This document shows positions 5,859-63,905 of a stretch of 64,000 bases of DNA, piece by piece. The DNA is from Caldicellulosiruptor naganoensis (GTDB lineage: Bacteria > Bacillota > Thermoanaerobacteria > Caldicellulosiruptorales > Caldicellulosiruptoraceae). Within the stretch, counting starts at the first letter, position 1; every line of letters starts with the position of its first letter. A model generated the notes under the pieces. The model was not told where the DNA came from. It saw nothing but the letters and a program-made list of their open reading frames with translations, and searched no databases. The position numbers were made by a program, and so were the translations under genes. The stretch covers positions 843,501 through 907,500 of the forward strand of contig NZ_CP113864.1 in NCBI RefSeq assembly GCF_026914285.1, read 5' to 3'.

Positions 5859-5890
5859 GGCTATCCTGCCTTTACACAGAGTTTATTTTA

Positions 5891-5919
5891 ATTATAATAA
5901 AATGGACAAAAGGGTTCAA
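5891..5919 (-). promoter_or_regulatory. Sigma-A promoter of pdxR
   Basis: On the minus strand the -35 is TTGAAC (5914-5919), then 17 nt, then a perfect -10 TATAAT (5891-5896). It overlaps the predicted divergent pdxS promoter, so one bound regulator could affect both. Confidence 0.65.
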
Positions 5920-5930
5920 TAAATTATATC
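5903..5930 (+). promoter_or_regulatory. Possible pdxS promoter
   Basis: TGGACA (5903-5908), 16 nt, TATATC (5925-5930). It is weak and would give a very short leader ahead of the CGGAGG ribosome site, as expected for an activator-dependent promoter. Low certainty. Confidence 0.35.
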
Positions 5931-5949
5931 GATACGGAGGTGCAACTTT

Positions 5950-6846
5950 ATGAGCGAAGTTGTGAATGTAAATGAAAGATATGAACTGAATAAAAACCTT
6001 GCGCAGATGCTAAAAGGCGGTGTTATTATGGATGTAACATCGCCAAAAGAGGCAGAGATTGCCGAAAAAGCAGGTGCTGTGGCTGTGATGGCACTTCAGA
6101 AGGTTCCAGCTGACCTAAGGCGTGAGGGCAAGGTTGCGCGCATGGCAGATCCGAAAATCATTTTAGAGATTAAGAAGGCTGTTTCAATTCCTGTTATGGC
6201 AAAGGTGCGAATTGGTCATTTTGTTGAGGCACAGATTTTAGAAGCTTTGGGTATTGACTATATAGATGAGAGTGAAGTCTTAACACCTGCTGATGAGGAG
6301 CATCATATTGACAAATGGAAGTTTAAAGCTGCTTTTGTCTGTGGTGCAAGGGATTTAGGAGAGGCACTCAGAAGAATCCAAGAAGGTGCTTCTATGATAA
6401 GAACAAAAGGTGAAGCCGGCACAGGAAATGTTGTTGAAGCAGTAAGGCACTTGAGAAGGATTAACAAACAGATTGCTTATGCAGCATCTTTAAATGAAGA
6501 TGAGCTTTACGCATATGCAAAGGAATTAGGTGTATCATATGAACTTTTGAAGAAAACTGCTGAGCTAAAAAGACTTCCTGTTGTGAACTTTGCAGCAGGT
6601 GGAATTGCAACACCAGCTGATGCAGCGCTTATGATGCAGCTTGGAGCAGATGGTGTGTTTGTTGGCTCTGGAATATTTAAGTCAAAAAACCCCGAAAAAA
6701 GAGCAAGGGCAATTGTCATGGCAACAACTTACTACAATGATCCAAAGATCTTGGCTGAAATTTCGTATGATCTTGGTGAGGAAATGGAAGGAATTGATTT
6801 AAGGGGCTTGTCGGCCGACCAACTTTTGCAGTTTAGGGGGAATTAA
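5950..6846 (+). CDS. pdxS: Pyridoxal 5'-phosphate synthase, PdxS subunit
   Basis: Synthase subunit of the DXP-independent vitamin B6 pathway. It makes PLP from ribose 5-phosphate, glyceraldehyde 3-phosphate and ammonia supplied by PdxT. The 298-residue (beta/alpha)8 barrel is highly typical: [17 protein letters not shown], the catalytic Lys in [17 protein letters not shown], and [17 protein letters not shown]. The ATG at 5950 follows CGGAGG. PdxT starts 3 bp after the stop, so the subunits are translationally coupled. Expected regulator: the divergent pdxR. Confidence 0.98.
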
Positions 6847-18259: not shown

Positions 18260-18284
18260 AGTAACATCAAAATAATTAATAATA

Positions 18285-18426
18285 GTGGCTGAATGCATGG
18301 GGTGATTTGTAAAATTTGCCCCATGCAGCGGGAGAACCAGCTTTATAGTGGGGTGAATCGGCAAGCTTTGGCTGCCGTAGGGATGTCCTTCTTGTCCCGA
18401 ACCCGTCAGCTAATCCCGTAAGCCCA
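18285..18426 (+). ncRNA. c-di-AMP riboswitch (ydaO-yuaA type)
   Basis: The leader contains the conserved ydaO landmarks in order: GCGGGAGAACC, then GGGGTGAATC with its hairpin (GGCAAGCTTTGGCTGCCG), then GTCCCGAACCCGTCAGCTAA and CCCGTAAGCC. The 5' GGCT (18287-18290) can pair with the final AGCC as P1. This class binds c-di-AMP and usually lowers expression of cell-wall hydrolases and osmolyte transporters. The gene behind it is an NlpC/P60 hydrolase, a standard target. An alternative pairing of TCCTTCTT (near 18385) with AAGAAGGGA (near 18430) would cover the ribosome site, suggesting one output mechanism. Confidence 0.88.
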
Positions 18427-18445
18427 AAAAGAAGGGAGTATTTTA

Positions 18446-27833: not shown

Positions 27834-29546
27834 TTGCCAAGAGAAAGAAAGAGAATTGGAGATGTTTTAGTAGAGGCAAAGATAATTACACCTCAGCAAC
27901 TGGAAGAAGCACTTAAAATTCAAAAGCAGACCAATAAAAAATTGGGCGAGATATTGGTTGAGAAAGGCTATATAACAGAAAATGAGCTAATAGAGATTTT
28001 AGAATTTCAGTTAGGGATACCTCACATAAAGTTAGATGTATATCCAATTGACCCTAAGGCAGTTGAAGCAATTTCTGAGTCAATTGCACGAAGACATACC
28101 GTTTTGCCGGTAAGTTTTGCCGAAGATGGAAGCCTGATTGTGGCAATGGCCGACCCTCTCAACATATTTGCTATGGAGGATATTGAGATTTATTCAGGCA
28201 GAAGAGTACGGCCACGAATTGCCAAGGCATCCGATATTAAACGTGCGATCGAAAGGTTCTATGGTAAGCAAGAAGCTTTAAAAGCAGCTGAAGAGTTGCA
28301 AAAAGAAAGTAGCGAAAAGGACAGCCAAGCCAAAAGAGCTACTGTTACGCCTCGATTCCAGCTTGGTTTGGAAGACGGAACAGAAGGACCTATTGTAAGA
28401 CTTGTCAATTCCATTTTTGAACAAGCTATTACATCGCGTGCAAGCGACATTCACATTGAACCGTTTGAGAACGAGATAAAAGTCAGATACAGAATAGATG
28501 GTGTATTGTATGATGTCTTGAAGTTAGATATTGGGATATTGCCATCACTAGTGGCAAGAATTAAGATTGTAGGTAATATGGACATTGCAGAAAAGAGGAT
28601 ACCACAGGATGGACGAACAACTTACATTTTTTCGGATAAAATATATGACATGAGAATCTCCTCTTTACCATGTGTTTATGGTGAAAAGATTGTTGTGCGT
28701 GTGATAGACAAAAGTGCATTTGTGCGTTCCAAAACTGAGCTTGGCTTGACTGAAGAGGACGAAGAGAAATATAACAAGCTGATTGCTGCGCCACATGGAA
28801 TAATCTTGGTCTGTGGTCCCACCGGTAGTGGTAAGTCTACTACGCTTTATACTATTTTAAACGAACTTAACACTGGAACGCGCAACATAATAACCGTTGA
28901 GGATCCTGTTGAAAGTACTATAGAAGGTATTAATCAAGTTGAGGTCAATACCAAAGCAGGGCTAACATTTGCAGCGGCGCTGAGATCAATCTTGCGACAG
29001 GACCCGGATATAATTATGATTGGTGAGATCCGAGACAGAGAAACAGCTGACATGGCAATCAGGGCTGCTATTACAGGGCATTTAGTGTTGTCAACCATTC
29101 ATACAAATGATGCAGCAAGTGCAATTACAAGGTTGGTTGACATGGGGATAGAAAACTTTTTGATAAGCTCGTCGTTGGTAGGGGTAATATCACAGAGATT
29201 GGTAAGAAAACTGTGTCCATACTGTAAAGAGCCTTATGAGCCATCAGATGAAGAAAAAATTCTTCTTGACATAAAGCAAGATGAGAGTGTAAAATTATAC
29301 ACAAAGAGAGGATGTCATATATGTGATAAAAAAGGTTATTATGGTAGAACAGGTGTATATGAAATTCTGATTGTGACAAAAGAGTTGAGAAAACTTATAA
29401 ACAAAAAAGATGTCAGCAGTGAGGAGATAAAGGAACTTGCTGTCAAAGAGGGGATGAAGACACTCCGAGAAGCGTGCAAAGAGAGAGTTTTGAATGGAAT
29501 TACATCAGTTGAAGAATATCTTAAGATTACTTATGCACTTGAATAG
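27834..29546 (+). CDS. pilB: Type IV pilus assembly ATPase PilB
   Basis: Hexameric ATPase that powers pilin polymerisation. The N-terminal MshEN domain (~1-150) has RIGDVLVEAKIITPQQLEEA and QLGIPHIKL. In several PilB/MshE proteins this domain binds c-di-GMP, which matters here given nearby c-di-GMP riboswitches. The ATPase part has Walker A GPTGSGKSTT (~residue 328), the Asp box, Walker B IIMIGEIRD (~393) and a tetracysteine zinc site (CPYC ~461 and CHIC ~495). Its 570 residues are standard. TTG start at 27834 after GGGGAG. Confidence 0.96.
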   Translation: MPRERKRIGDVLVEAKIITPQQLEEALKIQKQTNKKLGEILVEKGYITENELIEILEFQLGIPHIKLDVYPIDPKAVEAISESIARRHTVLPVSFAEDGSLIVAMADPLNIFAMEDIEIYSGRRVRPRIAKASDIKRAIERFYGKQEALKAAEELQKESSEKDSQAKRATVTPRFQLGLEDGTEGPIVRLVNSIFEQAITSRASDIHIEPFENEIKVRYRIDGVLYDVLKLDIGILPSLVARIKIVGNMDIAEKRIPQDGRTTYIFSDKIYDMRISSLPCVYGEKIVVRVIDKSAFVRSKTELGLTEEDEEKYNKLIAAPHGIILVCGPTGSGKSTTLYTILNELNTGTRNIITVEDPVESTIEGINQVEVNTKAGLTFAAALRSILRQDPDIIMIGEIRDRETADMAIRAAITGHLVLSTIHTNDAASAITRLVDMGIENFLISSSLVGVISQRLVRKLCPYCKEPYEPSDEEKILLDIKQDESVKLYTKRGCHICDKKGYYGRTGVYEILIVTKELRKLINKKDVSSEEIKELAVKEGMKTLREACKERVLNGITSVEEYLKITYALE

Positions 29547-33687: not shown

Positions 33688-33694
33688 GTATTTG

Positions 33695-33985
33695 ATGTAT
33701 GTTGTAAAAAATCTGATGGAAGAACTTGTTCAAAAATACTATGAGAAAATAATTGATGAATTGGACGTTTGCAAATGCGAAAAATGCAAAGCCGATGTAA
33801 TGGCATTGGCTCTGAATAGACTTCCACCTCGGTATTGTGTGACTGAAGATGGTAAGATGTTTGTGAAATTAAAAGAATTAGAAATTCAATTTGAAGTAGA
33901 TATAACTGCTGCGCTGGCAGCAGCGGCGTATATAGTCAAAAATAATATGAGGCATGAAGAAAGGGATTGTAAGAATGAAATATAG
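33695..33985 (+). CDS. ComFB-family protein (putative cyclic-dinucleotide receptor)
   Basis: A 96-residue soluble protein with the late-competence ComFB pattern: N-terminal helix (NLMEELVQKYYEKII), a Cys cluster (CKCEKCKADVMALALN) and NRLPPRYCVTEDG. ComFB homologues have recently been described as c-di-GMP/c-di-AMP receptors that affect competence and T4P motility. That is family knowledge and untested here. ATG 33695 is chosen over the adjoining TTG 33692. It sits inside the pilus operon between pilD and a minor pilin, overlapping the latter by 11 bp (if ATG 33975). Confidence 0.8.
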   Translation: MYVVKNLMEELVQKYYEKIIDELDVCKCEKCKADVMALALNRLPPRYCVTEDGKMFVKLKELEIQFEVDITAALAAAAYIVKNNMRHEERDCKNEI

Positions 33986-38261: not shown

Positions 38262-40190
38262 ATGCCGGAAAAAATTAGTTGTTTAAAAGACAAGATGTTT
38301 ATTAAAAAGGTTGACGGATCTGTTTTGATTGTGGTGATAATAGTTATTGCTGTTCTGAGCACAATATTGCTGGGGACGATGTCTGCTGTGTTGGCATCAC
38401 TGAACCAGAGCACATCTATATATCAGAAATCTGCAACAGGCTATGGAGCTGAAAGTGTAGCAGAGGAGTTTTTGTATTATTTTAATCAATTATTGGAGGC
38501 TGCAAAGGATATAGCATATGATTATTATTACAAAGCGGATGGGACACTGGAAAATACAAGTCCTGGCAGAGTAAGATTGTTATTGGGAGACGAAAGTTAC
38601 GAACCGGGGAAGATATTGGATGATTTGCGACACGGGAGGATAACTCAAGATGTAGCAAAGGACAAGGTGTATAAAGGTATTGAAGCGATAATAAAGGATG
38701 AGGTAAGCCGATTTATGAATGATGTGGGCAGTGATGCTTCTGTAAAGGTAGAATCTTTACCGTTGATGGAGTTTAAGAAGTTATCTGACTTGGTGCAGTT
38801 ATGGATAAGACCCCATTATGAGGGTTTGACTGGATATAAATTTGATGGTATTACAGTTAATGCATGGTCAGGTGCGACAGGAAGTTCTCTACCTGACGGT
38901 TATACCATTTACATTGATGTTTCCAAAACAAGAGCTGTAACTTCGTCGGATAAAGAAGTAAAAAGAACATTGCGATTAGACTTTAAAATACTTGGTAACA
39001 GTGGAAGTTCACAGAACATAATCTTGAATCCTTCACCAACCACAGTGCCTTCATCACCGATTGATTATGCAATATTTTCGAAAGGTGCTCTTATTACTAA
39101 CAAAAACCTGACTGTGGAAAATGGCAGTGTTTATTCAGGCGGTGACATGACGATTGACGGTGGTGCAGTATTTGATATTGACAATTTGATCTCAAAGGGT
39201 GATTTAGTAATAAATCAAGATACTGACACGCGCTGTAGAGACAATAATATAAATGTGCGAAACATAATTTATGTAGAAAAAAACTTAAAAACAAACAGAG
39301 CATATCCGCGCTTGACAAATATTCGAGCAAGAATAATTTATGTTGTTCAAGATATACAACTATATGGTGCAGGGAGTTATGAATTTAATCAATTGTTTAC
39401 AGATAATAATGTCGTTTTAGCTGGAGCGGGAGTGAATATGAAAATTTCTGGATTAGCAAGTATAACAGGAAGACTTGAGATTACTAATGGGGCAACGGTT
39501 ACCTTGCAAAATAACAGTGCACTTTACTGCAATTCATTGGTAGTACGCAATGGTTCCCGCTTGATTCTTGAAAGTGGAGCCAGATTATATGTAGCAACAA
39601 GTCCTGATCCGCTAACGATAATGTCCATACAGAATTATGGAGGGACAATTTCATTTTCTTCTTCTTTTTCATATCCCTCTCCACCAGCTGAAATTGACGA
39701 GATAAGAAATCGGGATTATACCAGTGGTTTGCTAACAACACCATTGCCAGCTGATAGTGTAGGCAGTAACCAACTTGGAAGTACTGCAGATACATCTCAA
39801 GCCCCACCGCAGATAGTAATATATGGTGAATCTTTTATTAACGATAATGAAGCAAGGATAGAGATATCAGACAGATTGGGATTATCAATTGTTGATTTCT
39901 CAACACTTCAGCTGCATTTAATTTCAAGAGGAAACATTACATTTGTGGGTGGCGGCTTAACCATTCTGAATGGTTCAATTATTTCCCTTGGTAATACTTT
40001 CAATATTAACACTATGGGAAATCCATATGCAGGACTAACGTTGAAGTATCAAATGCCAAGCCCACCCATTCAGCAAGACATTGAGAGTAATACAGGTATT
40101 CAACCATCTCAAACAATATATACGGAAGCTGATGCAGTCGGAAGAAAAACTTTATATAACATTTTAAGACGAAACATTGTTATAAAGTAG
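38262..40190 (+). CDS. Tapirin 1: T4P-linked cellulose adhesin
   Basis: A 642-residue protein. A PilX-like N terminus has a basic start, DG, then SVLIVVIIVIAVLSTILLG, but no Glu5. An alpha-helical region (~45-260) follows, and then a beta-helix-like region (~270-640) of short repeating strands (NLTVENGSVYSGGDMTIDGG). Size, position between the T4P operon and celA, and presence of a second copy match the tapirins of strongly cellulolytic Caldicellulosiruptor, which bind crystalline cellulose. This rests on remembered family traits, not on an alignment. A polymer-coat or PilX-type protein is the alternative. Intact in this strain, unlike tapirin 2. Confidence 0.72.
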   Translation: MPEKISCLKDKMFIKKVDGSVLIVVIIVIAVLSTILLGTMSAVLASLNQSTSIYQKSATGYGAESVAEEFLYYFNQLLEAAKDIAYDYYYKADGTLENTSPGRVRLLLGDESYEPGKILDDLRHGRITQDVAKDKVYKGIEAIIKDEVSRFMNDVGSDASVKVESLPLMEFKKLSDLVQLWIRPHYEGLTGYKFDGITVNAWSGATGSSLPDGYTIYIDVSKTRAVTSSDKEVKRTLRLDFKILGNSGSSQNIILNPSPTTVPSSPIDYAIFSKGALITNKNLTVENGSVYSGGDMTIDGGAVFDIDNLISKGDLVINQDTDTRCRDNNINVRNIIYVEKNLKTNRAYPRLTNIRARIIYVVQDIQLYGAGSYEFNQLFTDNNVVLAGAGVNMKISGLASITGRLEITNGATVTLQNNSALYCNSLVVRNGSRLILESGARLYVATSPDPLTIMSIQNYGGTISFSSSFSYPSPPAEIDEIRNRDYTSGLLTTPLPADSVGSNQLGSTADTSQAPPQIVIYGESFINDNEARIEISDRLGLSIVDFSTLQLHLISRGNITFVGGGLTILNGSIISLGNTFNINTMGNPYAGLTLKYQMPSPPIQQDIESNTGIQPSQTIYTEADAVGRKTLYNILRRNIVIK

Positions 40191-40333: not shown

Positions 40334-40362
40334 TTGAAAAACTCTAAGTTTTGTGAGATAAT
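40334..40362 (+). promoter_or_regulatory. Sigma-A promoter for riboswitch 1 / tapirin 2
   Basis: -35 TTGAAA (40334-40339), 17 nt, -10 GATAAT (40357-40362). The riboswitch begins about 30 nt after the predicted start. Confidence 0.6.
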
Positions 40363-40398: not shown

Positions 40399-40500
40399 GC
40401 ATATATCGAAAGGGCAAACCTGTCGAAAGGCAGGGGCGCAAAGCCATGGGCCTGTCGGAAGTAAAACTTCCTATGGTTGCCAGGCTGCCGAAAATATGCC
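40399..40500 (+). ncRNA. c-di-GMP-I riboswitch (GEMM-I), copy 1
   Basis: It shows all GEMM-I landmarks: P1 (GGCATAT 40399-40405 with ATATGCC 40494-40500), AGGGCAAACC, the GAAA tetraloop helix (CTGTCGAAAGGCAG), GGGCGCAAAGCC, ATGGGCC, the tetraloop-receptor hairpin and TATGGTTGCCAGGCTGCCG. It is followed by a terminator and then tapirin 2. The P1 3' strand (ATGCCA) can also pair with TGGCAT at 40534-40539, which is part of the terminator stem. Ligand binding would then free the terminator, predicting an OFF switch. That direction is inference. Confidence 0.93.
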
Positions 40501-40535
40501 AAGAGATGAGTGAGATATTTAATTATTGGCAAATG

Positions 40536-40567
40536 GCATCTGGCGACCGCCAGATGCTTTTATTTTT
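40536..40567 (+). terminator. Terminator of riboswitch 1 expression platform
   Basis: Near-perfect stem GCATCTGGC/GCCAGATGC with a GACC loop, then TTTTATTTTT. It lies between the aptamer and tapirin 2. Confidence 0.88.
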
Positions 40568-40936
40568 ATATCCATTGTTGTTTTAGTAGCAAAGAATTAA
40601 TGAACAAGTGGGAAGTACGGAGAGAGTTAAAAGGAAATAGAAAATTATTGTTAGCGTTGTATTTAACTATAGTTAAGAGTTTAAGGAAGTGTGTGAAATG
40701 TTGAGAACAAATTGGGAGACCTTTAGTAAAAAAGTATTCAAAATAAATTTGAATGGAAGTGCTTTAATTATTGTGATAATAATAATTGCTATTTTAAGCA
40801 CAGTCTTACTGGGGGCGATGTCGGCTGTGTTGGCATCGCTGAACCAGAGCACATCTATATATCAGAAATCTGCAACAGGCTATGGAGCTGAAAGTGCAGC
40901 CGAGGAGTTTTTGTATTATTTTAATCAACTGTTAGA

Positions 40937-40941
40937 GGATG
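40937..40941 (+). repeat. Target-site duplication GGATG, left copy
   Basis: Five-base duplication matching 43093-43097, in the usual 4-8 bp range for IS21-type elements. Confidence 0.85.
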
Positions 40942-41041
40942 TGTTAATGATAAAATAAAAATGTACTGAAAGTGGAATATAAGGATGTACAAAATTGTAC
41001 ATTGATATGATATCCTTTCTCATAGTGAGGAGGGATATCAA

Positions 41042-42245
41042 ATGCAGAACTTAACAGCACATTTAAACATGATAAGGGCGATGAAAATGAAACCTAACTT
41101 TTCAGAACTTGCAAGAATATATGGGATGGATAGAAGAACAGTTAAAAAATATTATGAGGGTTATGAAGGAAAACCTAAGAATAGAAATAAACCAAGTAAA
41201 TTGGACAAATACTATGATGAGATAAAATCAAAGCTTGCTATTAAAGGAGTTACAGTCAAGGGTGTTTATGAGTATTTAAAATCAAAAGATGAGACAATTG
41301 GAACATACTCAAACTTCAATAAGTATGTTAAGAAAAAAGGATTAAAGCCAGAGAAGAAAATAAAAGGTCACCCAAGATTTGAGACAGATCCAGGTGAGCA
41401 AGCGCAAGTTGATTGGAAAGAGAATATAAAGCTTGTCTCAAGAAATGGAGAGGAGTTTATCATTAATGTTTTTGATTTTAAATTAGGTTATTCAAGATAT
41501 TGCTGCTTTGCGATAAACAGGACAAAAACTCAAGAAGAATTAATAGAAACTCTAATAAGAATATTCAAAGATATAGGCGGAGTACCGAGAGAGATTTTAT
41601 TTGACAATACAGCAGCAGTTGTTGATATAACAGGTGAGAAAATTAAAGTAAATTCAAGATTTAAAAGTTTTGCAAAAGACTTTGGGTTTGAAGTGAAACT
41701 GTGCAAACCAAGACATTCGTACACAAAAGGAAAAGTTGAAGCAGCAAACAAGTTCATAGATTGGATACTGCCATATCAGGGTGAATTTGAAACAGAAGAG
41801 GACTTAGTAAGGATAATAAAAGAGATAAACGCAAAGGTAAATACCCAGCCAAATCAAACAACTCAAGTTCCACCTGCTCTTTAAGTTTCAAAAAGAAAAA
41901 GAGTATTTACAACCCTTGCCAGACAAAAGGTTAATAGACAGTTACCTAAATTCCTACAAGTCAGTTAAAGTCCAAAAGGACTCGCTGATTTACTATAAGG
42001 GAAGTAAATACTCTGTTCCACCCGAATACATAGGAAAGACAGTCCAAATAAAGGAGGTGGAAAACAAAATTTATATTTATTATAACACAAACCTGTTAAG
42101 GATACATGTTATTGATGAAAAAAATATTAATTATCACGATGAAGATTACAAACAGCTAATGCAAATGAGAGTTGGTCAAAGAGAAGAGCTTAACAAGATA
42201 TGTGAGGAAAACTTAAAGAAATTTGATAATCTGTTGAAAAACTAA
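41042..42245 (+). pseudogene. istA: istA transposase gene, frameshifted
   Basis: DDE transposase of IS21 type. It has an N-terminal helix-turn-helix (FSELARIYGMDRRTVKKYY) and catalytic acids in GEQAQVDWKEN (first Asp), ILFDNTAAVV (second Asp) and SYTKGKVEAANKFI (Glu). The frame ends at TAA 41882-41884. One base over, the protein goes on without a break (FQKEKEYLQPLPDKRLIDSY...) to 42245. The full product would be about 400 residues. The shift is in a CTTTAAG context, so it is a plain indel rather than an evident programmed slip site. Confidence 0.88.
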
Positions 42246-42265
42246 AGAAAGGAGAAAATCTAAAA

Positions 42266-43092
42266 ATGAACAACTATGTGAAACTACTTAACAACTTAGA
42301 AGAGTTAGGTCTTCACAACATAAAGAATAATCTTGACAAATACTTAGATTTAGTGGCAAGCGGAGAAAAGAGTATGACAGATGCATTGTATGAACTTAGC
42401 AATTTAGAGATAAAAGCCAAAGAAGAAAGGACGATATTAGGATGTGTGAGGGTTGCAAATTTCCCATTTATAAAAGGTATAGAAGATTTTGATTTTTCAT
42501 TTCAGCCAAGTATAAACAAAAAGCAGATAATGGATTTGATGAGTTTAAGATTTTTAGAGGGTAATGAAAATATACTGTTTGTAGGGACACCAGGGGTAGG
42601 CAAAACTCATTTAGCCACGGCAATAGGAATAGAGTGCGCAAAACGAAGGTTATTCAACATATTTTATACATTTTCAAGAGTTAATAGCTCAGCTAAAAAA
42701 AGCACTGTTAGAGAACAGATTAGAGTACAGACTTAAGCATTTTTCGAAATACAAAGTTTTAATAATAGATGAGATAGGTTATTTGCCAATAGACAATGAT
42801 GGAGCAAATTTATTTTTCCAGCTGATATCGAGCAGATATGAGAAGAGCAGTACAATAATAACAACTAATGTTGTATTTTCAGAATGGGGAGAGATATTTG
42901 GTGGAGCGACAATAGCAAATGCAATTTTAGATAGGCTACTCCATCATTCTTACGTGATTTTCATAAAAGGACCTTCATACAGATTACAGTCAAAAACAGC
43001 ATATTTTAGCAATATAAAACCAGCAAAACTAAGTTTATTTTTTGTACATTTTTATTTTCGATTTTTTGTTCATTTTGATATTGACATTTACA
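42266..43092 (+). pseudogene. istB: istB helper ATPase gene, frameshifted
   Basis: AAA+ helper of IS21 transposition. The N-terminal part reaches Walker A (FVGTPGVGKTHLATAIG). The frame is lost near 42640-42660 and resumes in another frame with ELIAQLKKALLENRLEYRLK, then Walker B VLIIDEIGYLPID and sensor region TIITTNVVFSEW. The second frame runs past the IS end and stops at 43107-43109 inside tapirin 2. It starts 20 bp after istA, as usual. Confidence 0.88.
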
Positions 43093-43097
43093 GGATG
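43093..43097 (+). repeat. Target-site duplication GGATG, right copy
   Basis: Right copy of the five-base duplication flanking the IS. Confidence 0.85.
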
Positions 43098-44801
43098 CAA
43101 AGAACATAGCGTATGCTTATTATTACAAGGGAGATGGGACACTAAAAGATATAAGTCCTGGTCGAGTGAGATGGTTATTGGGGGATGAGAGCTATGAGCC
43201 GGGGAAGATATTGGATGATTTGCGACATGGGAGGATAAGTCGAGATGTAGCTGAAGACAAAGTGTATGAGGGTATGAAAGCGATTATAAGGGATGAGGTA
43301 AGCCAGTTTATGAATGACGTGGGTAGTGATGCTTCCATAAAGGTTGAATTTCTGTCGCTGCCGGAGTTTAAGAAGTTATCTGACTTAGTAGAGTTGTATA
43401 TAAAGCCACATTATGAGAGCCTGACTGGGTATGAACTTGATGATATTACAGTTAATGCATGGTCAGGTACGACAAGTGGGTCTCTTCCTGATGGATATAC
43501 AATTTACATTGATGTATCTAAAAAGAGAGCAGGAACTTCGTCAGTTAAAAAGATAAAGAGAACATTGCGGTTAGATGTTGAAATACTTGCAACCAAGCCT
43601 AATGGGCTGGAAATTAGCGTATCGAGTGCAACTACTACTGCATCCTCAATATTTAACTTGTTTGATTATGCATTATACACAAATGGAAGTTTTGTGGCAA
43701 ATGTTAATTTTACCATATTAGGCGGGAATGTACATACAGGCTGTGACATACAATCACACGGCGGTTTACAAACTGGCATTAATAATTTGGTGGTAATGGG
43801 TGAGTTATCACTGGGTGTGAACAGTAATCCACAAGTTTGCGAAGACAATGTAAAAGTGAACAATGTAACTTATATTAGGTCAAATTTGAGAAGAACGGGT
43901 GTTGGAGATAGAAATATTAACTTGCAAATGGGTATAACGTACGTGGGGGGGCGGGGGAAATGCGGAATTATATGGTAGAGGTAGATATGAGTTTGATGAG
44001 TTATACTGCGATGGGAATGTCATAGTTAAAGGTAGTACAGCAAATGCGGTAGATGTTGTAATAAAGAAAATAGGAGTAATCAGGGGTGCGTTAAGAATAC
44101 AGGATCAGGGGACAGTTACAATAAAATCTGGTGCAGTAGTATATTGCGATTCGATTTAGTTTTTGAACAATCCAACAACGTTAGTAATAGAAAATGGCGC
44201 AACCATTGTGACGAGAATGCCGCCTGACTATAGTCGGATTGTTAATTCCGGTGGGGTTATAAATGTAGTGTCCTCAGTTCCGTATCCGCCCTTGCCACAA
44301 ATTTTAAATGAGATAAGAAATTTTAGTTTTCCTAATAGTACAAGTATATCATCGATAACACCCCATGATCCAGTTCCACCAGCCTTAATTGACAGTGCTG
44401 CAGATATTTCCAAATCACCTTCGCAGGTTGTGGTTATTGGTGAAAATTGTAATGCTGGTGAAATTGAAGTTGAGGTTCAAAACAGATTTATGAGTGTTTC
44501 ACCAGTTCCAAGTCCACTTCAATTACATGTTTTTGCAAGAAATAACATTACTGTTTCAGTGGGAACGAGAATATTAAATGGTCAATTGATTGCGTTAGGT
44601 AATACTCTTAACATAAATAGTTCAGGCGGGAGTCCATTTGATGGTGTAAAATTAATATATGGTTCGCCAAGTTCACTCATTCAGAATCAGGTAACAGATA
44701 GTACTGGATATGTTCCGCCTGTAACAATGTCCAGCCGAAGGGATTCAATTCAAAGCGGTACTTTGTATAGGGTAGTAAGAAGAAATATTATTGTTAAATA
44801 A

Positions 44802-45997
44802 TACAAAAGGATTAATATAAGATATATCTTATTTTATGAAAATTATCTAAAATCAAAAATTTACTATAATCCAACACAGGTTGTTTTAGTTTTTTATACA
44901 TGGCTTTATCCAACTTTATAAAGACTATTTTCGAGTGTATTTAAATCAGTTTTTAACCAAGGATTTTCCTTTTGTATTACTTCATATAAAATTACACTTG
45001 CCCCTGCCTAATTCATGCAGATTTTTATAATGCCACTTTTTATTTCATTTTAGTGTTTAAATTTTATATCTTTGTGGTATTATTATTATAAGTCATGAAC
45101 ACAATATTTTTTGGCATACTGAATTTTGTTTGTGACAAATAAGTATATCCTTTTTCTTGAGTCTGTTGACACTGTAGCAAAATTTTAAAAAATTTGATTA
45201 AGTACATATAGCTAGTCATACAACACAATGTGAAAAAAAATTTAAAAAAATTTTGTTTAGATAGTCAGAACTAAAAAGTAATAAAATATTGAGCTACTCA
45301 GACGTGGATTTGACTATTGGGTTGTTAGTGGGAAATTTTTTTGGGAAGAATTATTAATTCTATGTTTTGATTGTAAAAAGATAGTAATACAAGGAAATTG
45401 ATTATTACCTTTACTCATAGGAGTTTCAAGGAATTGAAGACCTTTAATTGATACTAAATTCAAACTATATTAAAGATTTTACCATACAAACTTTATTTTT
45501 GTCACATTAAATTTTACCTATTTCCGCTTATCCAACAATTGCGAGAGTATATTCATATTTTGACGTGTAAGCTTTACTCATGCAGTTGTTCGAGATAAAA
45601 TTATTCGTAAAATGTGAATTTCAGTTATTAAAAATACATCATGAAGAAAGTTGCAAAATATATTCAAAATAAACCAAGTATAGTACTTATTGTGCAAAGG
45701 AAACGCAAAGGATAAGCTCTTATGAGAATTCTTAACGGCTATCAGAGCATCTGTAGAAAACTTCGAAAAAAAATTAGAGAATCAGTTTAAGAATGTCAAA
45801 AAAGTTGCTGATGTAGCCAAGTAGGGAATGAGGACTGTTTAAATTAATATTTTTAACGAGCTCATAAAGTCTTTAGAAAGAGAGCTTTTTGGTTTGATTT
45901 TTGAGTGTTTTATTATACTCATTCTTATAAAGAGTTTATATTTTAACTGCCTGCAAGAAGAAGGGGAAATTTTTTGGATAATTTTAAAAGAGTGTGG
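44802..45997. other. 1.2-kb AT-rich region with possible gene remnants
   Basis: No intact gene is seen. Two stretches keep coding flavour. On the minus strand around 44880-45010, a frame reads SVILYEVIQKENPWLKTDLN before stops. On the plus strand around 45745-45825, a frame reads LTAIRASVENFEKKLENQFK and ends at TAG. Both look like decayed ends of unidentified proteins. The rest is unstructured A/T-rich DNA, compatible with lost genes between the tapirins and the NHL gene. Confidence 0.4.
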
Positions 45998-46020
45998 AAA
46001 CGCTCATTTTGAGCGTTTTT
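45998..46020 (+). terminator. Rho-independent terminator
   Basis: AAACGCTC/GAGCGTTT stem with an ATTT loop and a T5 run, just upstream of the NHL gene. It isolates that gene from 5' transcription. Confidence 0.75.
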
Positions 46021-46068
46021 GCAAGTGGCTAAATTATATTATATATTGAGAGAGGGGGTATATATAAC

Positions 46069-46992
46069 ATGAAGAGACTCATTTTTGTCGCTGTGACTTT
46101 ATTTGTATGCGTAGCTATTTTGCTAACGACAGTTGTTGTATCTGCAAGTGTATACCAAATTATACCAACTAAGGGTAGAAGTGAGGTTTTGCGTTTGCCA
46201 AACAGCGTGGCAGTTGATTCTAAGGGGTTTATAATTGTAGCTGATACAGACAATTGCAGGATAGTGAAATTTGATCCTACTGGTAAAAAAGTTTTTTCAA
46301 TTGGAATGAAGGGTAATCAAAAGAATCAGTTTTTGTACCCTGCAGCAGTTACCTGCGATAAGAATGGCAATATATACGTAGCGGATACCGGAAATTCAAG
46401 ATTAGTAAAGTTATCACCAGATGGTAAGTGGCTTGCTTCATGGGAAAAGGTTAAAGTAAAGCGCGGTAAATTACAGACACCTATGGGAATTGCTGTAGAT
46501 CGTAAAGGTTATATATACGTTAGTGATTATTCACTAAATAAAATTGTTAAATATAACAGTATAGGACAATTTGTGTCTGAAATAACAAAATTAAATACAA
46601 AAGGAGATAAATTGAATTTCCCTCGCGGTATTGCTGTGGATCCAGCTGGAAATCTATATGTAGCTGATAGTGGAAACAATAGGATTGTTGTTATAAACCA
46701 AAAAGGTAATGTTGTATCTATATATAACAAAATAAGCAATTATTTCAAACTTCATCACCCCTTAGGTATTGCAATAGATCAAAGTGGTGTGAATATCGCT
46801 ATCACGGATACTGATTACCATCGAGTTATTTTATATTCTACTAAGATAAGAAAAGCTTATACCTGGGGAAAAAATGAGAAAAACAAATTCAATTTGAATT
46901 ATCCGACTGATGTGTGTTTTGACTTAGAAGGGAATATTATTGTTGCAGATACGTATAACAGCAGAATAGTAAAAATTGTGATTAAAAAATAA
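46069..46992 (+). CDS. Secreted NHL-repeat beta-propeller protein
   Basis: A 307-residue protein with signal peptide ~1-27 (LFVCVAILLTTVVVSAS) and then about six NHL repeats. Each has the pattern P-x-(G/S)-(V/I)-A-V-D-x-x-G-x-(I/L)-x-V-(A/S)-D-(T/S) (such as IAVDPAGNLYVADSGNNRIV and VTCDKNGNIYVADTGNSRLV), making a single propeller. Such propellers mediate protein or carbohydrate contacts outside the cell. ATG 46069 follows GAGAGGGGG. It lies between the adhesins and the cellulase locus and has its own terminator. Binding partner unknown. Confidence 0.88.
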   Translation: MKRLIFVAVTLFVCVAILLTTVVVSASVYQIIPTKGRSEVLRLPNSVAVDSKGFIIVADTDNCRIVKFDPTGKKVFSIGMKGNQKNQFLYPAAVTCDKNGNIYVADTGNSRLVKLSPDGKWLASWEKVKVKRGKLQTPMGIAVDRKGYIYVSDYSLNKIVKYNSIGQFVSEITKLNTKGDKLNFPRGIAVDPAGNLYVADSGNNRIVVINQKGNVVSIYNKISNYFKLHHPLGIAIDQSGVNIAITDTDYHRVILYSTKIRKAYTWGKNEKNKFNLNYPTDVCFDLEGNIIVADTYNSRIVKIVIKK

Positions 46993-47955
46993 CGAAAAGC
47001 ATGTACCGGTTTTCTCTCAAAAATGATTAGGAATAATTATATATTGAAGATTTGTTTACTATGAATACTGAAATAGGAAATTGAATTAAGGGGAGGAGAC
47101 CAGAGTTTTTAGTTAAAAAACTTTGCATATGGTGTCCTCCCGTTTATTTTTTGCATTTGCTGAAATTACGGCGACAATATTCAAAAAACATAAAAATATA
47201 AACATAAACTAAAAGCAGTTAGTGGCATTAAGAAGGTTAACTACAAATATTAACGCTTGTTGCTATATTTGTTCTTTATTCTTTGCAAGCAAAATTATAT
47301 TTTTATATGTTCGTATACATCATTTGAAGTTATCATTGTTTAATTATTATGCACCAAAGTTTGACTTAAAAAATAGAATAAAGATTAAGATTATTACATA
47401 GACCTACTTTTACACAATCATGTTTTTTAGTGAACACCATTTCGTTTGAGAATAGATTTTATTGAATTTTTGGTTATTTTGATACTACATTTTCTTAAAA
47501 GATAGACAAAGATAAGCGCCTATATTCTCATGAAAGCTCTTATTGGTTTTTCAATAATGAGATTTTCGAGGTAAGACGAAAGTTTTTTTGGACTTATCCT
47601 CAGAAATACAATATATAGCTTTTCTTACAGAGTGTTTTTAATATACCTAATATTTTTAGAGGTTTTAAATATGCTTTTGTTATTTTCTAATCTGTCACCT
47701 TTCGAAATACTTCTCTTGCTTTTTCAAAAATTCTTGAGTTCATGGATTTGGTATAACATACACAGGCAACTTTCCTCCCGTCCTGGTAGTTTTTGAATGT
47801 TTCTTTTGAATGGGAGATTATACTTTTTAATTATATTCATGACAGGATGGAGGCAGCCTCAATTATTTTTATAACCTTCTCCTTAGTGTTTTCGCACATT
47901 CTTTCGCTGTGGTAAGTATCTTTACACCTATTCGAGTCATAAAATGAAAAAGTAG
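46993..47955. other. Intergenic region, about 1 kb, no intact gene
   Basis: After the NHL terminator the DNA is AT-rich. On the minus strand around 47700-47940 short runs of codons (such as GGKLPVYVIPN) are broken by many stops, possibly an old gene remnant I cannot name. No RNA gene is seen. Confidence 0.4.
47090..47152 (+). terminator. Terminator after the NHL gene
   Basis: GGGAGGA (47091-47097) pairs with TCCTCCC (47135-47141), with inner pairing AGTTTTT/AAAAACT, then TTTATTTTTT. Confidence 0.8.
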
Positions 47956-47985
47956 TTGACAAATCATTGGTGTTAGCGTTACAAT
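47956..47985 (+). promoter_or_regulatory. Sigma-A promoter for riboswitch 2
   Basis: Consensus -35 TTGACA (47956-47961), 18 nt, -10 TACAAT (47980-47985). Start is expected about 38 nt before the aptamer. Confidence 0.65.
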
Positions 47986-48029
47986 ATTATTGCAATGTGA
48001 AATAAAGAAATTAAAAAATTAAATATGAA

Positions 48030-48133
48030 GTGAGTGGTCGAAAGGGCAAACCTGTCGAAAGGCAGGGGCGCAAAGCCATGGGCCTGTCGGGAGTAAAACT
48101 TCCTATGGTTGCCAGGCTGCCGAAACCTACTCG
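48030..48133 (+). ncRNA. c-di-GMP-I riboswitch (GEMM-I), copy 2
   Basis: The aptamer core from CGAAAGGGCAAACC to GCCAGGCTGCCGAAA matches copy 1 with only one difference that I can see, but P1 (GAGTGG 48032-48037 with CCTACTC 48126-48132) and everything outside it are different. It is followed by a perfect terminator. The next gene on this strand is celA, about 600 bp on. That gene has a closer promoter of its own, so control of celA is possible but not established. Confidence 0.93.
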
Positions 48134-48160
48134 GGCTTAATAGAGGGTTGAGAAAAGGTT

Positions 48161-48194
48161 AAAACGGCGTCTGGCTTGACGCCGTTTTATTTTT
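48161..48194 (+). terminator. Terminator of riboswitch 2 expression platform
   Basis: Perfect 11-bp stem AAAACGGCGTC/GACGCCGTTTT with a six-base loop, then TTTTATTTTT. Confidence 0.92.
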
Positions 48195-48658
48195 GGAATG
48201 AAATTAAAAAATGGTTCATAGGTATATGTTAAAGTATAAAGAAGATAGTAATCTAAAATTTATATAGATTCTTCTGTAACGCTGAAAGAAGCTATCCCCT
48301 AACCCCCTCTTTACAATATTATATATACTTATATATTGGCTGCCGTGCAAAGGCAGCCAATATTAACTTTGTTTAGCTACTGAAAAAAGTTTCTACCACA
48401 TCATAAAGCTATTCAAAAAAATATAACTATCTTTTCTTAACCGATCATATCCATATGAATTCCGTTTAATATCAAATTATTTTGTTGCATTTTTTTGACC
48501 TCCATAGAGCAAAATAATGCAAAATATTAGAAACATATGTGTTATAATTTTGTAATAAAAAGAGTATAAGAAATAAAAGTGTGTATATGGAATGAAAAAT
48601 AGAAATAGCGTATTGCGTTTTTGACAATTAAACAAACAAATTAGACAAAAAAAATCAA
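48195..48658. other. Long leader/intergenic stretch between riboswitch 2 and celA
   Basis: No ORF with a ribosome site. It contains one strong hairpin (48334-48344 with 48352-48362, TATTGGCTGCC/GGCAGCCAATA) lacking a good T-tail. It could be a processing site or second attenuator if transcription passes the riboswitch. Confidence 0.45.
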
Positions 48659-48687
48659 TTGGCATGCACATATTTTGGGTGTATAAT
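48659..48687 (+). promoter_or_regulatory. Sigma-A promoter of celA
   Basis: -35 TTGGCA (48659-48664), 17 nt, perfect -10 TATAAT (48682-48687). The leader would be about 40 nt with AAAGGAGGT before the ATG. Confidence 0.75.
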
Positions 48688-48732
48688 AAAATCGAAAATT
48701 ACAATAAACTGAATAAAGGAGGTTAGAGGTTT

Positions 48733-51700
48733 ATGAAGCGTTACAGAAGAATTATTGCCATGGTTGTAACTTTTATATTTATTTTAGGAATGGTATATGG
48801 GGTTAAACCATGGCAAGAAGCACGGGCTGGTTCGTTTAACTATGGTGAAGCTTTACAAAAAGCTATCATGTTTTACGAATTTCAAATGTCTGGTAAACTT
48901 CCTAATTGGGTACGCAACAATTGGCGTGGCGATTCAGCATTAAAGGATGGTCAAGACAATGGGCTTGATTTAACTGGTGGTTGGTTTGACGCAGGTGATC
49001 ACGTCAAGTTTAACCTTCCAATGTCATACACTGGTACAATGTTGTCATGGGCAGTGTATGAGTACAAAGATGCATTTGTCAAGAGTGGTCAATTGGAACA
49101 TATCTTAAACCAAATCGAATGGGTTAATGACTATTTTGTAAAATGCCATCCAAGCAAATATGTATATTACTACCAGGTTGGAGATGGCAGCAAGGACCAT
49201 GCATGGTGGGGTCCTGCTGAGGTTATGCAAATGGAAAGGCCTTCATTTAAAGTTACACAAAGTAGTCCAGGTTCTGCAGTAGTAGCTGAGACAGCAGCGT
49301 CTTTAGCAGCAGCATCAATTGTATTAAAGGATAGAAATCCAACAAAAGCAGCAACATACTTGCAGCATGCAAAAGATTTATACGAGTTTGCAGAAGTTAC
49401 AAAAAGCGATTCGGGTTACACAGCTGCAAATGGATATTATAATTCATGGAGCGGTTTCTATGATGAACTGTCATGGGCAGCGGTATGGTTGTATTTGGCA
49501 ACAAATGATTCAACGTATTTAACAAAGGCAGAATCATATGTTCAAAACTGGCCCAAAATTTCAGGCAGCAATATAATCGACTACAAGTGGGCTCATTGCT
49601 GGGATGACGTTCATATTGGTGCGGCATTGTTGTTAGCGAAAATTACTGGAAAAGATACTTACAAACAAATTATGGAGAGGCACTTAGATTATTGGACAAC
49701 AGGTTACAATGGGGAAAGAATTAGGTATACTCCAAAAGGATTAGCATGGCTTGATCAATGGGGTTCTTTAAGATATGCAACAACTACAGCGTTTATAGCA
49801 TTTGTTTATAGCGATTGGTCTGGTTGTCCAAGTGGTAAAAAAGAAACATATAGAAAATTTGGAGAAAGCCAAATTGATTATGCATTAGGCTCAACTGGAA
49901 GAAGCTTTGTTGTTGGATTTGGCACAAATCCACCAAAGAGACCTCATCACAGAACTGCTCATAGCTCATGGGCAGACAGTCAGAGTATACCTTCATATCA
50001 TAGACATACATTATATGGAGCGCTTGTTGGTGGTCCAGGCTCTGATGATAGCTATACAGATGACATTAGCAACTATGTGAATAATGAGGTAGCATGTGAT
50101 TACAACGCAGGATTTGTTGGTGCATTGGCAAAGATGTACTTATTGTATGGTGGAAATCCAATACCTGACTTCAAAGCCATTGAAACACCAACAAATGACG
50201 AGTTCTTTGTTGAAGCTGGTATAAATGCTTCTGGAACAAACTTTATTGAAATTAAGGCGATTGTTAATAACCAGAGTGGTTGGCCCGCAAGAGCAACAGA
50301 TAAGCTTAAATTTAGATATTTTGTTGACCTGAGCGAATTAATTAAAGCAGGATATTCACCAAATCAATTAACCTTGAGCACCAATTATAATCAAGGTGCA
50401 AAAGTAAGTGGACCTTATGTATGGGATGCTAGCAAAAATATATACTACATTTTAGTAGACTTTACTGGCACATTGATTTATCCAGGTGGTCAAGACAAAT
50501 ATAAGAAAGAAGTTCAATTCAGAATTGCAGCACCACAGAATGTACAGTGGGATAATTCTAACGACTATTCATTCCAGGATATAAAAGGAGTTACAAGTGG
50601 TTCAGTTGTTAAAACTAAATATATTCCACTTTATGATGGAGATGTAAAAGTATGGGGTGAGGAACCAGGAACTTCTGGAACAACTCCAACTCCAACACCT
50701 ACAGTAACTGCTACACCAACCCCAACACCAACAGCAACATCAAGACCTACACCTACACCTACACCAACGCCTACACCTACACCTACACCAACACCAACAG
50801 TAACAACAACTCCAACACCGACCCCGACACCGACAGTAACAGCAACCCCAACACCGACACCGACACCTGTTAGCACACCTGCGACAAGCGGGCAGATAAA
50901 GGTACTGTATGCTAACAAGGAGACAAACAGCACGACAAACACGATAAGGCCATGGTTGAAGGTAGTGAACACGGGAAGCAGTAGCATAGATTTGAGCAGG
51001 GTAACGATAAGGTACTGGTACACGGTAGATGGAGACAAGGCACAGAGTGCGATATCAGACTGGGCACAGATAGGAGCAAGCAATGTAACATTCAAGTTTG
51101 TGAAGCTGAGCAGTAGCGTAAGTGGAGCGGACTATTACTTGGAGATAGGATTTAAGAGCGGAGCGGGGCAGTTGCAGCCTGGGAAGGACACAGGGGAGAT
51201 ACAGATAAGGTTTAACAAGAGTGACTGGAGCAATTACAATCAGGGGAATGACTGGTCATGGTTGCAGAGCATGACGAGTTATGGAGAGAATATGAAGGTA
51301 ACGGCGTATATAGATGGAGTGCTGGTATGGGGTCAGGAGCCGAGTGGAGCGACACCTGCACCGACCCCAACACCGACACCGACAGTAACAGCAACCCCAA
51401 CACCGACACCGACACCTGTTAGCACACCTGCGACAAGCGGGCAGATAAAGGTACTGTATGCTAACAAGGAGACAAACAGCACGACAAACACGATAAGGCC
51501 ATGGTTGAAGGTAGTGAACACGGGAAGCAGTAGCATAGATTTGAGCAGGGTAACGATAAGGTACTGGTACACGGTAGATGGAGACAAGGCACAGAGTGCG
51601 ATATCAGATTGGGCACAGATAGGAGCAAGCAATGTAACATTCAAGTTTGTGAAGCTGAGCAGTAGCGTAAGTGGAGCGGACTATTACTTGGAGATAGGAT

Positions 51701-53982
51701 TTAAGAGCGGAGCGGGGCAGTTGCAGCCTGGTAAAGACACAGGGGAGATACAGATAAGGTTTAACAAGAGTGACTGGAGCAATTACAATCAGGGGAATGA
51801 CTGGTCATGGTTGCAGAGCATGACGAGTTATGGAGAGAATATGAAGGTAACGGCGTATATAGATGGAGTGCTGGTATGGGGTCAGGAGCCGAGTGGAGCG
51901 ACACCTGCACCGACCCCAACACCGACACCGACAGTAACAGCAACCCCAACACCGACACCGACACCAGCACCGACACCGACACCGACACCGACACCAACAC
52001 CAACACCAACACCAACACCGACGGTAACACCGACGCCGACCCCGACGCAGACAGTTGCGCCTACACCGACGCCGAGCAGCACACCGAGCGGGCTTGGCGA
52101 ATATGGGCAGAGGTTTATGTGGTTATGGAACAAGATACATGATCCTGCGAACGGGTATTTTAACCAGGATGGGATACCATATCATTCGGTAGAGACATTG
52201 ATATGCGAAGCACCTGATTATGGTCATTTGACCACGAGTGAAGCATTTTCGTACTATGTATGGCTTGAGGCAGTGTATGGGAAGTTAACAGGTGATTGGA
52301 GCAAGTTTAAGACGGCATGGGACACATTAGAGAAGTATATGATACCGTCAGCGGAAGATCAGCCGATGAGGACATATGATCCTAACAAGCCAGCGACGTA
52401 TGCAGGTGAGTGGGAGACACCGGACAAGTATCCATCGCCGCTTGAGTTTAATGTACCTGTTGGCAAAGACCCGTTGCATAATGAGCTTGTGAGCACATAT
52501 GGTAGCACATTGATGTATGGTATGCACTGGTTGATGGACGTAGACAACTGGTATGGATATGGCAAGAGAGGGGACGGAGTGAGCCGTGCATCATTTATCA
52601 ACACGTTCCAGAGAGGGCCTGAGGAGTCTGTATGGGAGACTGTACCGCATCCGAGCTGGGAGGACTTCAAGTGGGGCGGACCGAATGGATTTTTAGATCT
52701 GTTTATTAAGGATCAGAACTATTCGAAGCAGTGGAGATACACGAATGCACCTGATGCGGATGCGAGAGCTATTCAGGCTACTTACTGGGCGAAGGTATGG
52801 GCGAAGGAGCAAGGTAAGTTTAATGAGATAAGCAGCTATGTAGCGAAGGCAGCGAAGATGGGTGACTATTTGAGGTATGCGATGTTTGACAAGTATTTCA
52901 AGCCATTAGGATGTCAGGACAAGAATGCGGCTGGAGGAACAGGGTATGACAGTGCACATTATCTGTTATCATGGTATTATGCATGGGGCGGAGCATTGGA
53001 TGGAGCATGGTCATGGAAGATAGGTTGCAGCCATGTGCACTTTGGATATCAGAATCCGATGGCTGCATGGGCATTAGCGAATGATAGTGATATGAAGCCG
53101 AAGTCACCGAACGGAGCGAGTGACTGGGCGAAGAGTTTGAAGAGGCAGATAGAATTTTACAGGTGGTTGCAGTCAGCGGAGGGAGCGATAGCAGGAGGCG
53201 CGACAAATTCATGGAATGGCAGGTACGAGAAATATCCGGCAGGTACAGCGACATTTTATGGAATGGCGTATGACCCGAACCCGGTATATCGAGATCCTGG
53301 CAGCAACACATGGTTTGGATTCCAGGCATGGTCGATGCAGAGGGTAGCGGAGTATTACTATGTGACAGGAGATAAGGAGGCAGGTGCACTGCTTGAGAAG
53401 TGGGTAAGCTGGATAAAGAGTGTAGTGAAGTTGAACAGTGATGGTACATTTGCGATACCATCGACGCTTGATTGGAGTGGGCAGCCAGACACATGGAATG
53501 GGACATATACAGGTAATCCGAACTTGCATGTGAAGGTAGTAGATTATGGTACGGATTTAGGAATAACGGCATCACTTGCGAATGCACTACTTTATTACAG
53601 TGCAGGGACGAAGAAGTATGGGGTATTTGATGAGGAAGCGAAGAATTTAGCGAAGGAATTGCTGGACAGGATGTGGAAGTTGTACAGGGATGACAAGGGA
53701 TTGTCAGCGCCAGAGAAGAGAGCGGACTACAAGAGATTTTTTGAGCAAGAGGTATACATTCCGGCAGGATGGACAGGGAAGATGCCGAATGGAGATGTAA
53801 TAAAGAGTGGAGTTAAGTTTATAGACATAAGGAGCAAGTACAAACAAGATCCTGATTGGCCGAAGTTAGAGGCGGCATACAAGTCAGGGCAGGTACCGGA
53901 GTTCAGATATCACAGGTTCTGGGCACAGTGCGACATAGCAATTGCTAATGCAACATATGAAATTCTGTTCGGCAATCAATAA
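48733..53982 (+). CDS. celA: CelA-type cellulase: GH9-CBM3c-CBM3b-CBM3b-GH48
   Basis: A 1749-residue secreted enzyme for crystalline cellulose. Signal peptide ~1-32. GH9 processive endoglucanase ~34-480 (Asp86/Asp89 in [10 protein letters not shown], acid Glu452 in [11 protein letters not shown]). CBM3c ~490-640, which assists GH9. Pro/Thr linker ~650-715. CBM3b ~717-872, linker, CBM3b ~900-1055, linker, then GH48 reducing-end cellobiohydrolase ~1120-1749 (acid Glu1170 in [11 protein letters not shown]). The order equals CelA of C. bescii, the main cellulase of that organism. The GH9 module is AT-rich, while CBM3b/GH48 use clearly more GC-ending codons. Own promoter upstream; first gene of the glucan-degradation locus. 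Confidence 0.97.
50881..51350 (+). repeat. CBM3b module copy A (470 bp)
   Basis: First of six near-identical 470-bp units coding a cellulose-binding CBM3b (starts [14 protein letters not shown], ends WGQEPSGA). The identity includes synonymous positions. Confidence 0.95.
51430..51899 (+). repeat. CBM3b module copy B (470 bp)
   Basis: Second copy in celA. It differs from copy A only at scattered bases, such as GGTAAAGAC for GGGAAGGAC. Confidence 0.95.
52003..53979 (+). repeat. GH48 block, copy 1
   Basis: Linker end plus GH48 module, matching 61748-63724 base for base apart from roughly ten substitutions, at a constant offset of 9745 with no indels. Confidence 0.95.
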
Positions 53983-63811: not shown

Positions 63812-63905
63812 GTTATAAACTGACATGGTATTTCAAAGAAGAAAGAATTAGGTAATATTATGTGTCTTATTAGCGTTGAATTTAAGAGAGGGGGTTAGGT
63901 TGTTA

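Follow-up and report, generated by a model that had tools for sequence, protein, structure and literature searches.

Within a window of 64,000 nucleotides from Caldicellulosiruptor naganoensis (NZ_CP113864.1, positions 843,501 to 907,500 of the forward strand; coordinates below count from its first letter), two almost identical aptamers of the cyclic di-GMP (c-di-GMP) class, here called A and B, precede a tapirin gene and the celA region, respectively. Among the cellulases of these hot-spring bacteria CelA is the best known, yet no transcription factor could be named for its locus in a 2021 study. Directly behind the terminator of B lies an inverted copy of the celA start, and the conserved c-di-GMP switch together with this anti-celA element offers a concrete hypothesis on celA control, namely that a riboswitch on the sense strand gates an RNA holding the inverted celA start and that the second messenger turns the cellulase on by switching off the antisense. 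We put the chances of this reading below even.

Two aptamers and a probable shared antitermination device

An earlier note on this DNA, made from its letters alone, had read two GEMM-I aptamers here, and the search bears this out. Aptamer A is placed at 40404-40493 (+, E 4.5e-15) and aptamer B at 48036-48125 (+, E 3.5e-14) by cmscan, and a search with RF01051 scores them at 82.3 and 79.1 bits, above the gathering score of 35 bits. As the note had also seen, the cores (40406-40493 and 48038-48125) differ at a single position in 88 nt, A at 40459 and G at 48091, and the sequences flanking them are dissimilar. Helices P1, P2 and P3 can all form in both copies. The note's description of the P1 stems as unrelated is true of their sequences; the outer P1 nevertheless pairs at both sites, as GGCAUAU/AUAUGCC at A (40398-40404/40494-40500) and as GAGUGG/CCuACUC at B (48032-48037/48126-48132). 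The ligand pocket of the class is marked by G20, A47 and C92 in Vc2 numbering, and both copies carry pocket bases of the c-di-GMP type (GGGC AAACC, CGC-A-AAGCC and GCUGC-C). By class, A and B are thus almost certainly genuine c-di-GMP-I aptamers, with c-di-GMP as the predicted ligand. That they belong instead to the c-di-GMP-I-GGC variant, possibly reading another ligand, is suggested by cmscan, in which RF03167 wins the clan for both; however, RF03167 scores them lower than RF01051 does (71.9 and 68.8 bits), and in the cmscan alignment the column that distinguishes the variant (CGC-G-AAGCC) holds A instead of G in both window copies, like ordinary c-di-GMP-I. We take the letters GGC in the family name to stand for positions 20, 47 and 92, the position after CGC presumably being the middle letter. 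Because the distinguishing base does not fit, the variant was rejected as very improbable and the ordinary class is the better reading.

The aptamers were compared across 12 genomes of the genus, among them the 2.49-Mb source genome (G000), and their sites were classed by flanking genes. All 12 genomes carry between one and four c-di-GMP-I aptamers with an almost unchanged core, four of them in G000. Site A follows the type IV pilus operon and the first tapirin gene and precedes a second one (six genomes), site B precedes celA (seven genomes, called B genomes below), and site C precedes a secreted protein of 139-158 amino acids beside a GAF-GGDEF gene (nearly all genomes); rarer sites also exist. 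The outer P1 is formed in 25 of the 26 leaders of types A, B, C and X, with at least 5 bp in each and with a sequence that varies between sites.

The terminators, which the note had likewise called unrelated, turn out to have a 10-nt motif in common. Terminator A (40535-40567, +) has a 5' arm, GGCAUCUGGC, that is complementary to the 3' strand of the aptamer, GCCAGGCUGCC, and terminator B (48160-48194, +) carries GGCGUC in its stem and UGGC in its loop, both complementary to the aptamer 3' strand. The motif, GGCNNCUGGC, lies in the terminator 5' arm of all 26 leaders, where it can pair with the 3' strand of the leader's own aptamer, and occurs at 46 sites in 773 kb on both strands, the leaders' own copies included. 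The duplex of terminator arm and aptamer 3' strand is computed at -14 to -20 kcal/mol, whereas 63 unrelated terminators average -8.2. The UGGC in the loop of terminator B is not needed by the hairpin, yet it is kept in 7/7 B genomes, and an aptamer from another genus of the family (G012) is followed by a similar GGCACCUGAC terminator. At 37 °C, the nascent RNAs of both leaders have as their minimum free energy (MFE) structure a long antiterminator in which GCCAGGCUGCC is paired with the terminator 5' arm, and enforcing the aptamer fold in either model sets the terminator free. At 70 °C the antiterminator of A is retained; B, on the other side of the balance, folds without it and prefers an aptamer-like structure, at a temperature for which the energy parameters are extrapolated.

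On these models the leaders probably hold a shared antitermination device with a platform of the OFF type, in which c-di-GMP is predicted to stop transcription. In the absence of ligand, the aptamer 3' strand would pair with the GGCNNCUGGC arm of the terminator and RNA polymerase would read on; with c-di-GMP bound, the same strand would be held in P3 and P1, the terminator would form and transcription would end. Candidate promoters precede both leaders. The site before A (40334-40362, +; TTGAAA-17-GATAAT, with TG before the second hexamer) is a consensus match only, and such matches occur in the region at chance level. Before B (47956-47985, +; TTGACA-18-TACAAT), the TTGACA is kept and the -10 position is conserved in six genomes (G000, G002, G004, G007, G009 and G011).

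The anti-celA element and its possible action

The celA gene (48733-53982, +; GH9-CBM3x3-GH48, 1749 aa, by domain search) is the nearest same-strand gene downstream of B in 7/7 genomes. Seven of the eight genomes that encode GH48 enzymes have site B, and the four that lack such enzymes also lack the site. The earlier placement of B before celA holds in so far as celA is the neighbour, but about 540 nt, with a conserved element and a presumed promoter of its own, separate terminator B from the gene. The element (48268-48309, +) repeats, in inverted form and over 42 nt, the ribosome-binding site of celA together with codons 2-8: its first part, 48268-48283, pairs with codons 2-8, and its last, 48299-48309, with the Shine-Dalgarno sequence, the target being 48716-48752 (+; Shine-Dalgarno 48716-48726, ATG 48733, then codons 2-8). 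All seven B genomes have it, and the five that lack B do not. In the block 48263-48310, 27 of 30 columns are invariant versus 2-9 of 30 just upstream, and a 23-nt core of the element occurs exactly and in single copy in each B genome and is absent from the other five. A search for known RNA families in 48190-48740 gave no credible match.

In the seven genomes the element and the celA start are predicted to form a duplex of 32-43 bp, with energies between -36.5 and -51.2 kcal/mol for 37 °C and between -11.6 and -24.1 kcal/mol for 70 °C, and with 15-16 of 16 pairs formed in the half facing codons 2-8 and 9-11 of 11 in the Shine-Dalgarno half. Against shuffled sequences the duplex reaches z values of -5 to -8.6, and the pairing is part of the MFE structure of the whole read-through RNA in 7/7 genomes at both 37 and 70 °C. 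A conserved C-rich stretch acting merely as a generic anti-Shine-Dalgarno sequence was considered and found insufficient, since the second, 16-bp half matches celA codons 2-8. Going by the pattern of conservation and complementarity, it is quite likely that the element has been selected for pairing with celA.

The region also bears signs of a separate celA start. A TATAAT at 48543-48548 (+), identical in 7/7 B genomes, marks a presumed proximal promoter and implies a 5' untranslated region (UTR) of about 171-178 nt. This agrees with the range mapped in C. bescii, where the 5' UTRs of carbohydrate genes reportedly lie mostly within 180 nt and the longest measures 329 nt (PMC8579813); by that measure, B would lie upstream of any mapped celA start. 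Before celA there is in addition a block at 48631-48656, AACAAACAAATTAGACAAAAAAAATC, which is conserved at about 28 of 30 positions in the seven genomes and occurs once in the window, without repetition at the window's other cellulase genes; it is perhaps the site of celA's regulator. Between the element and the proximal promoter, comparison reveals a conserved hairpin with a variable loop and a weak U-rich tail (48333-48363, +), a possible 3' end of the read-through RNA.

B and celA are both on the + strand, and the RNA gated by B is complementary to celA mRNA. Carrying the inverted celA start, the read-through RNA of B would not simply be celA mRNA. In a long read-through mRNA the element would fold back and mask the celA start, whereas a shorter RNA, running from the promoter-like site at 47956-47985 to an end near the 48333-48363 hairpin, would be a small RNA that targets, in trans, the celA mRNA started by the proximal promoter at about 48545. 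At low c-di-GMP, read-through would yield anti-celA RNA and, given action in trans or interference, celA would be repressed; at high c-di-GMP, transcription would stop at terminator B, no anti-celA RNA would arise and CelA would be made. Should the element work in cis only, long transcripts would be silent and B would matter less. Computation establishes the aptamers, the shared antiterminator, the complementary element, the conservation and the co-occurrence. For the chain as a whole, in which the ligand, the direction, the dominant promoter, the choice between trans and cis and the effect on CelA are all inferred, we put the chances at only slightly less than even. The earlier suggestion that the circuit perhaps sets cellulose attack would survive in this form, probably with the opposite sign and by a route other than a plain leader.

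Two simpler readings compete with it. B might be a conventional celA leader, at which c-di-GMP would end transcription at about 48190 and lower celA, the read-through RNA being translated normally and the repeat being incidental or a mild brake. The position of celA as nearest same-strand gene in every B genome and the OFF-type antiterminator design speak for this; yet the celA start of such a read-through mRNA sits in the strong duplex described above in all seven genomes, a conserved presumed promoter lies between B and celA, and the implied 5' UTR of about 740 nt exceeds the longest mapped one reported for such C. bescii genes (PMC8579813), so that we judge it unlikely. Alternatively, B and the inverted repeat could be leftovers or an insulator, with B ending stray upstream transcription and a transcription factor running celA from the proximal promoter. 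In line with this, one genome (G003) keeps celA although the outer P1 of its site B is broken; on the other hand, six genomes with otherwise diverged flanks have preserved the whole set of aptamer, P1 pairing, antiterminator motif, B promoter and anti-celA element, and this reading, too, appears rather improbable.

Gating of an anti-celA RNA by B, which is the reading preferred here, has weaknesses of its own. A cis-only element would spare the proximal celA transcripts, so that for B to have a real effect the element must act in trans or transcription must interfere; the hairpin at 48333-48363 has a poor U tract. Long and proximal mRNA are predicted to expose the celA start to different degrees in some of the genomes only, and one G000 shuffle comes close to the observed duplex (-39.4 versus -39.9). 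Other purine-rich Shine-Dalgarno sites likewise pair with the C-rich half of the element, celA ranking 9th of 37 for that half, so the specificity rests on the 16-bp half; being closely similar, the sequences show few compensatory changes.

Separately from celA, the next GH10-GH5 gene (63909) has a Shine-Dalgarno sequence, GAGGGGGTTAGG at 63888-63899, that is the sole genome-wide match to GAGGNGGTTAGR besides the anti-celA element, and its duplex with the element is computed at -32.6. The element may also pair in trans with the Shine-Dalgarno sites of further cellulase genes at this locus, of which this would be one example.

Site A and the history of the aptamer family

Upstream of A ends a type IV pilus operon, the last gene of which encodes tapirin 1, a cellulose adhesin of 642 aa (38262-40190, +; phmmer 4wa0 E 2.2e-193, tapirin 6n2b E 3.5e-84). 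Domain searches confirm the earlier mention of an MshEN domain, a known c-di-GMP receptor fold, at the N-terminus of the PilB-type ATPase (27834-29546, +) and of a ComFB-family protein (33692-33985, +) in the same operon. A was said to stand before a cellulose adhesin, and tapirin identity is indeed supported by homology to solved tapirins for tapirin 1 and for the intact tapirin 2 of G011; the gene behind A in G000, however, is an interrupted pseudogene. This tapirin 2 (40690-44801, +), close to which the leader of A ends, is cut after about codon 84 by an IS21-type insertion and further damaged by a frameshift and an in-frame stop. The inserted element (41042-43109, +; IstA-like integrase core and IstB by sequence match) has a short target duplication, and its own frames are broken. 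Tapirin 2 is intact, at 652 codons, in G011 and G009 and also full-length in G002, G004 and G007. A would be an ordinary OFF switch in the tapirin 2 leader, and the idea that the circuit sets attachment is not supported in G000, where the switched tapirin is dead, although it is intact in the five relatives. An inverted repeat of the celA type was sought at A and none was found. The site C target in G000, the small secreted protein, for which no Pfam match was obtained, is frameshifted with a stop (L040 3850-4270) and intact in relatives. As the targets of A and C are both broken, B is the only one of the three main sites in G000 with an intact neighbour gene.

A single mismatch between A and B despite unlike flanks had led the note to propose that the aptamer alone was recently duplicated or converted. 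That such exchange is possible can be seen at site B of G003, which is chimeric (L044 ~5790-6060, reverse strand) in that 119 bp of a type-C promoter are joined to a type-B aptamer and downstream region; this conversion-like patch lies at the site whose outer P1 is reduced to 2 bp. In G000, by contrast, the proposal was rejected and now seems most improbable. The A-B distance within genomes (mean 1.67) is hardly smaller than that between genomes (1.80; permutation 0.67), the A/B difference of G000 recurs in the ortholog pair of G011, and type C cores in 12 genomes are nearly alike outside P3, the A-C cores varying almost solely at the P3 tip. Because within-genome pairs are no closer and the difference is common to the G011 orthologs, the near-identity of A and B is best read from these sequences as slow evolution of an older family, not as a recent copy.

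Further family members were met along the way. A stretch of G011 (L047 4135-8588, reverse strand) holds an extra c-di-GMP-I aptamer, followed by an HD-domain (HD-GYP-like) gene and by a pair of genes that read like CheA and CheW; feedback on c-di-GMP is possible there. In G006 an aptamer with intact P1 and terminator (L050 5654-6000) has no gene behind it and stands where a deletion seems to have joined the pilus locus to that of site C. G000 has a truncated c-di-GMP-I aptamer behind gyrA (G000:C1:10755-10820, L004), where G006, G009 and G010 have full copies. G002 (3 contigs, 1759-aa CelA) is presumably C. bescii and G011 presumably C. saccharolyticus.

Cellular context and comparison with known riboswitches

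The source genome has 8 GGDEF loci plus EAL and HD-GYP genes. Earlier work measured c-di-GMP in cultures of Caldicellulosiruptor and, for co-cultures of C. owensensis, connected it with biofilm (PMC4342205; PMC9933333); among the papers searched, none joined Caldicellulosiruptor, c-di-GMP and riboswitch. The window holds, in addition, a c-di-AMP riboswitch at 18277-18440 (RF00379, 91.6 bits) before the gene at 18446. If the proposed control of celA is true, the attach-or-swim signal would be tied to cellulose attack.

A and B share with the GEMM-I family (RF01051) the model score, the helices P1 to P3, the pocket bases and an intrinsic terminator behind the aptamer; they differ in their targets, a tapirin gene and the celA region, and in that the RNA gated by B holds an anti-start element. 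Vc1 of Vibrio cholerae is likewise a c-di-GMP-I riboswitch preceding a gene for a secreted polysaccharide-binding adhesin, gbpA, but raises expression with c-di-GMP (PMC4744006), whereas for A the prediction is a decrease, through termination of transcription. Cd1 of Clostridioides difficile is a c-di-GMP-I OFF switch, as predicted here, before the flagellar operon (PMC4744006); its target genes are others, and in Caldicellulosiruptor one antiterminator motif recurs at several loci of the genus. Bc1 of Bacillus thuringiensis resembles B as a c-di-GMP-I leader whose expression platform is long and includes a second, more distant hairpin; it differs in having two terminators 28 bp apart and in barely responding in vivo, and its abstract mentions no inverted repeat of the start of the target gene (PMC11218506).

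A functional likeness exists to the antisense-acting riboswitches of the Listeria pocR type, in which the ligand stops an RNA complementary to the target and thereby frees the target, as proposed for B. In a survey of such riboswitches the c-di-GMP family was the most enriched (PMC9943018). By the definition used there, they are opposite in orientation to their target, whereas B runs in the same direction as celA and owes its antisense part to an inverted repeat of the start of this target; if the reading is true, a sense-orientation riboswitch gating an inverted-repeat antisense element would lie beyond the reach of surveys based on orientation.

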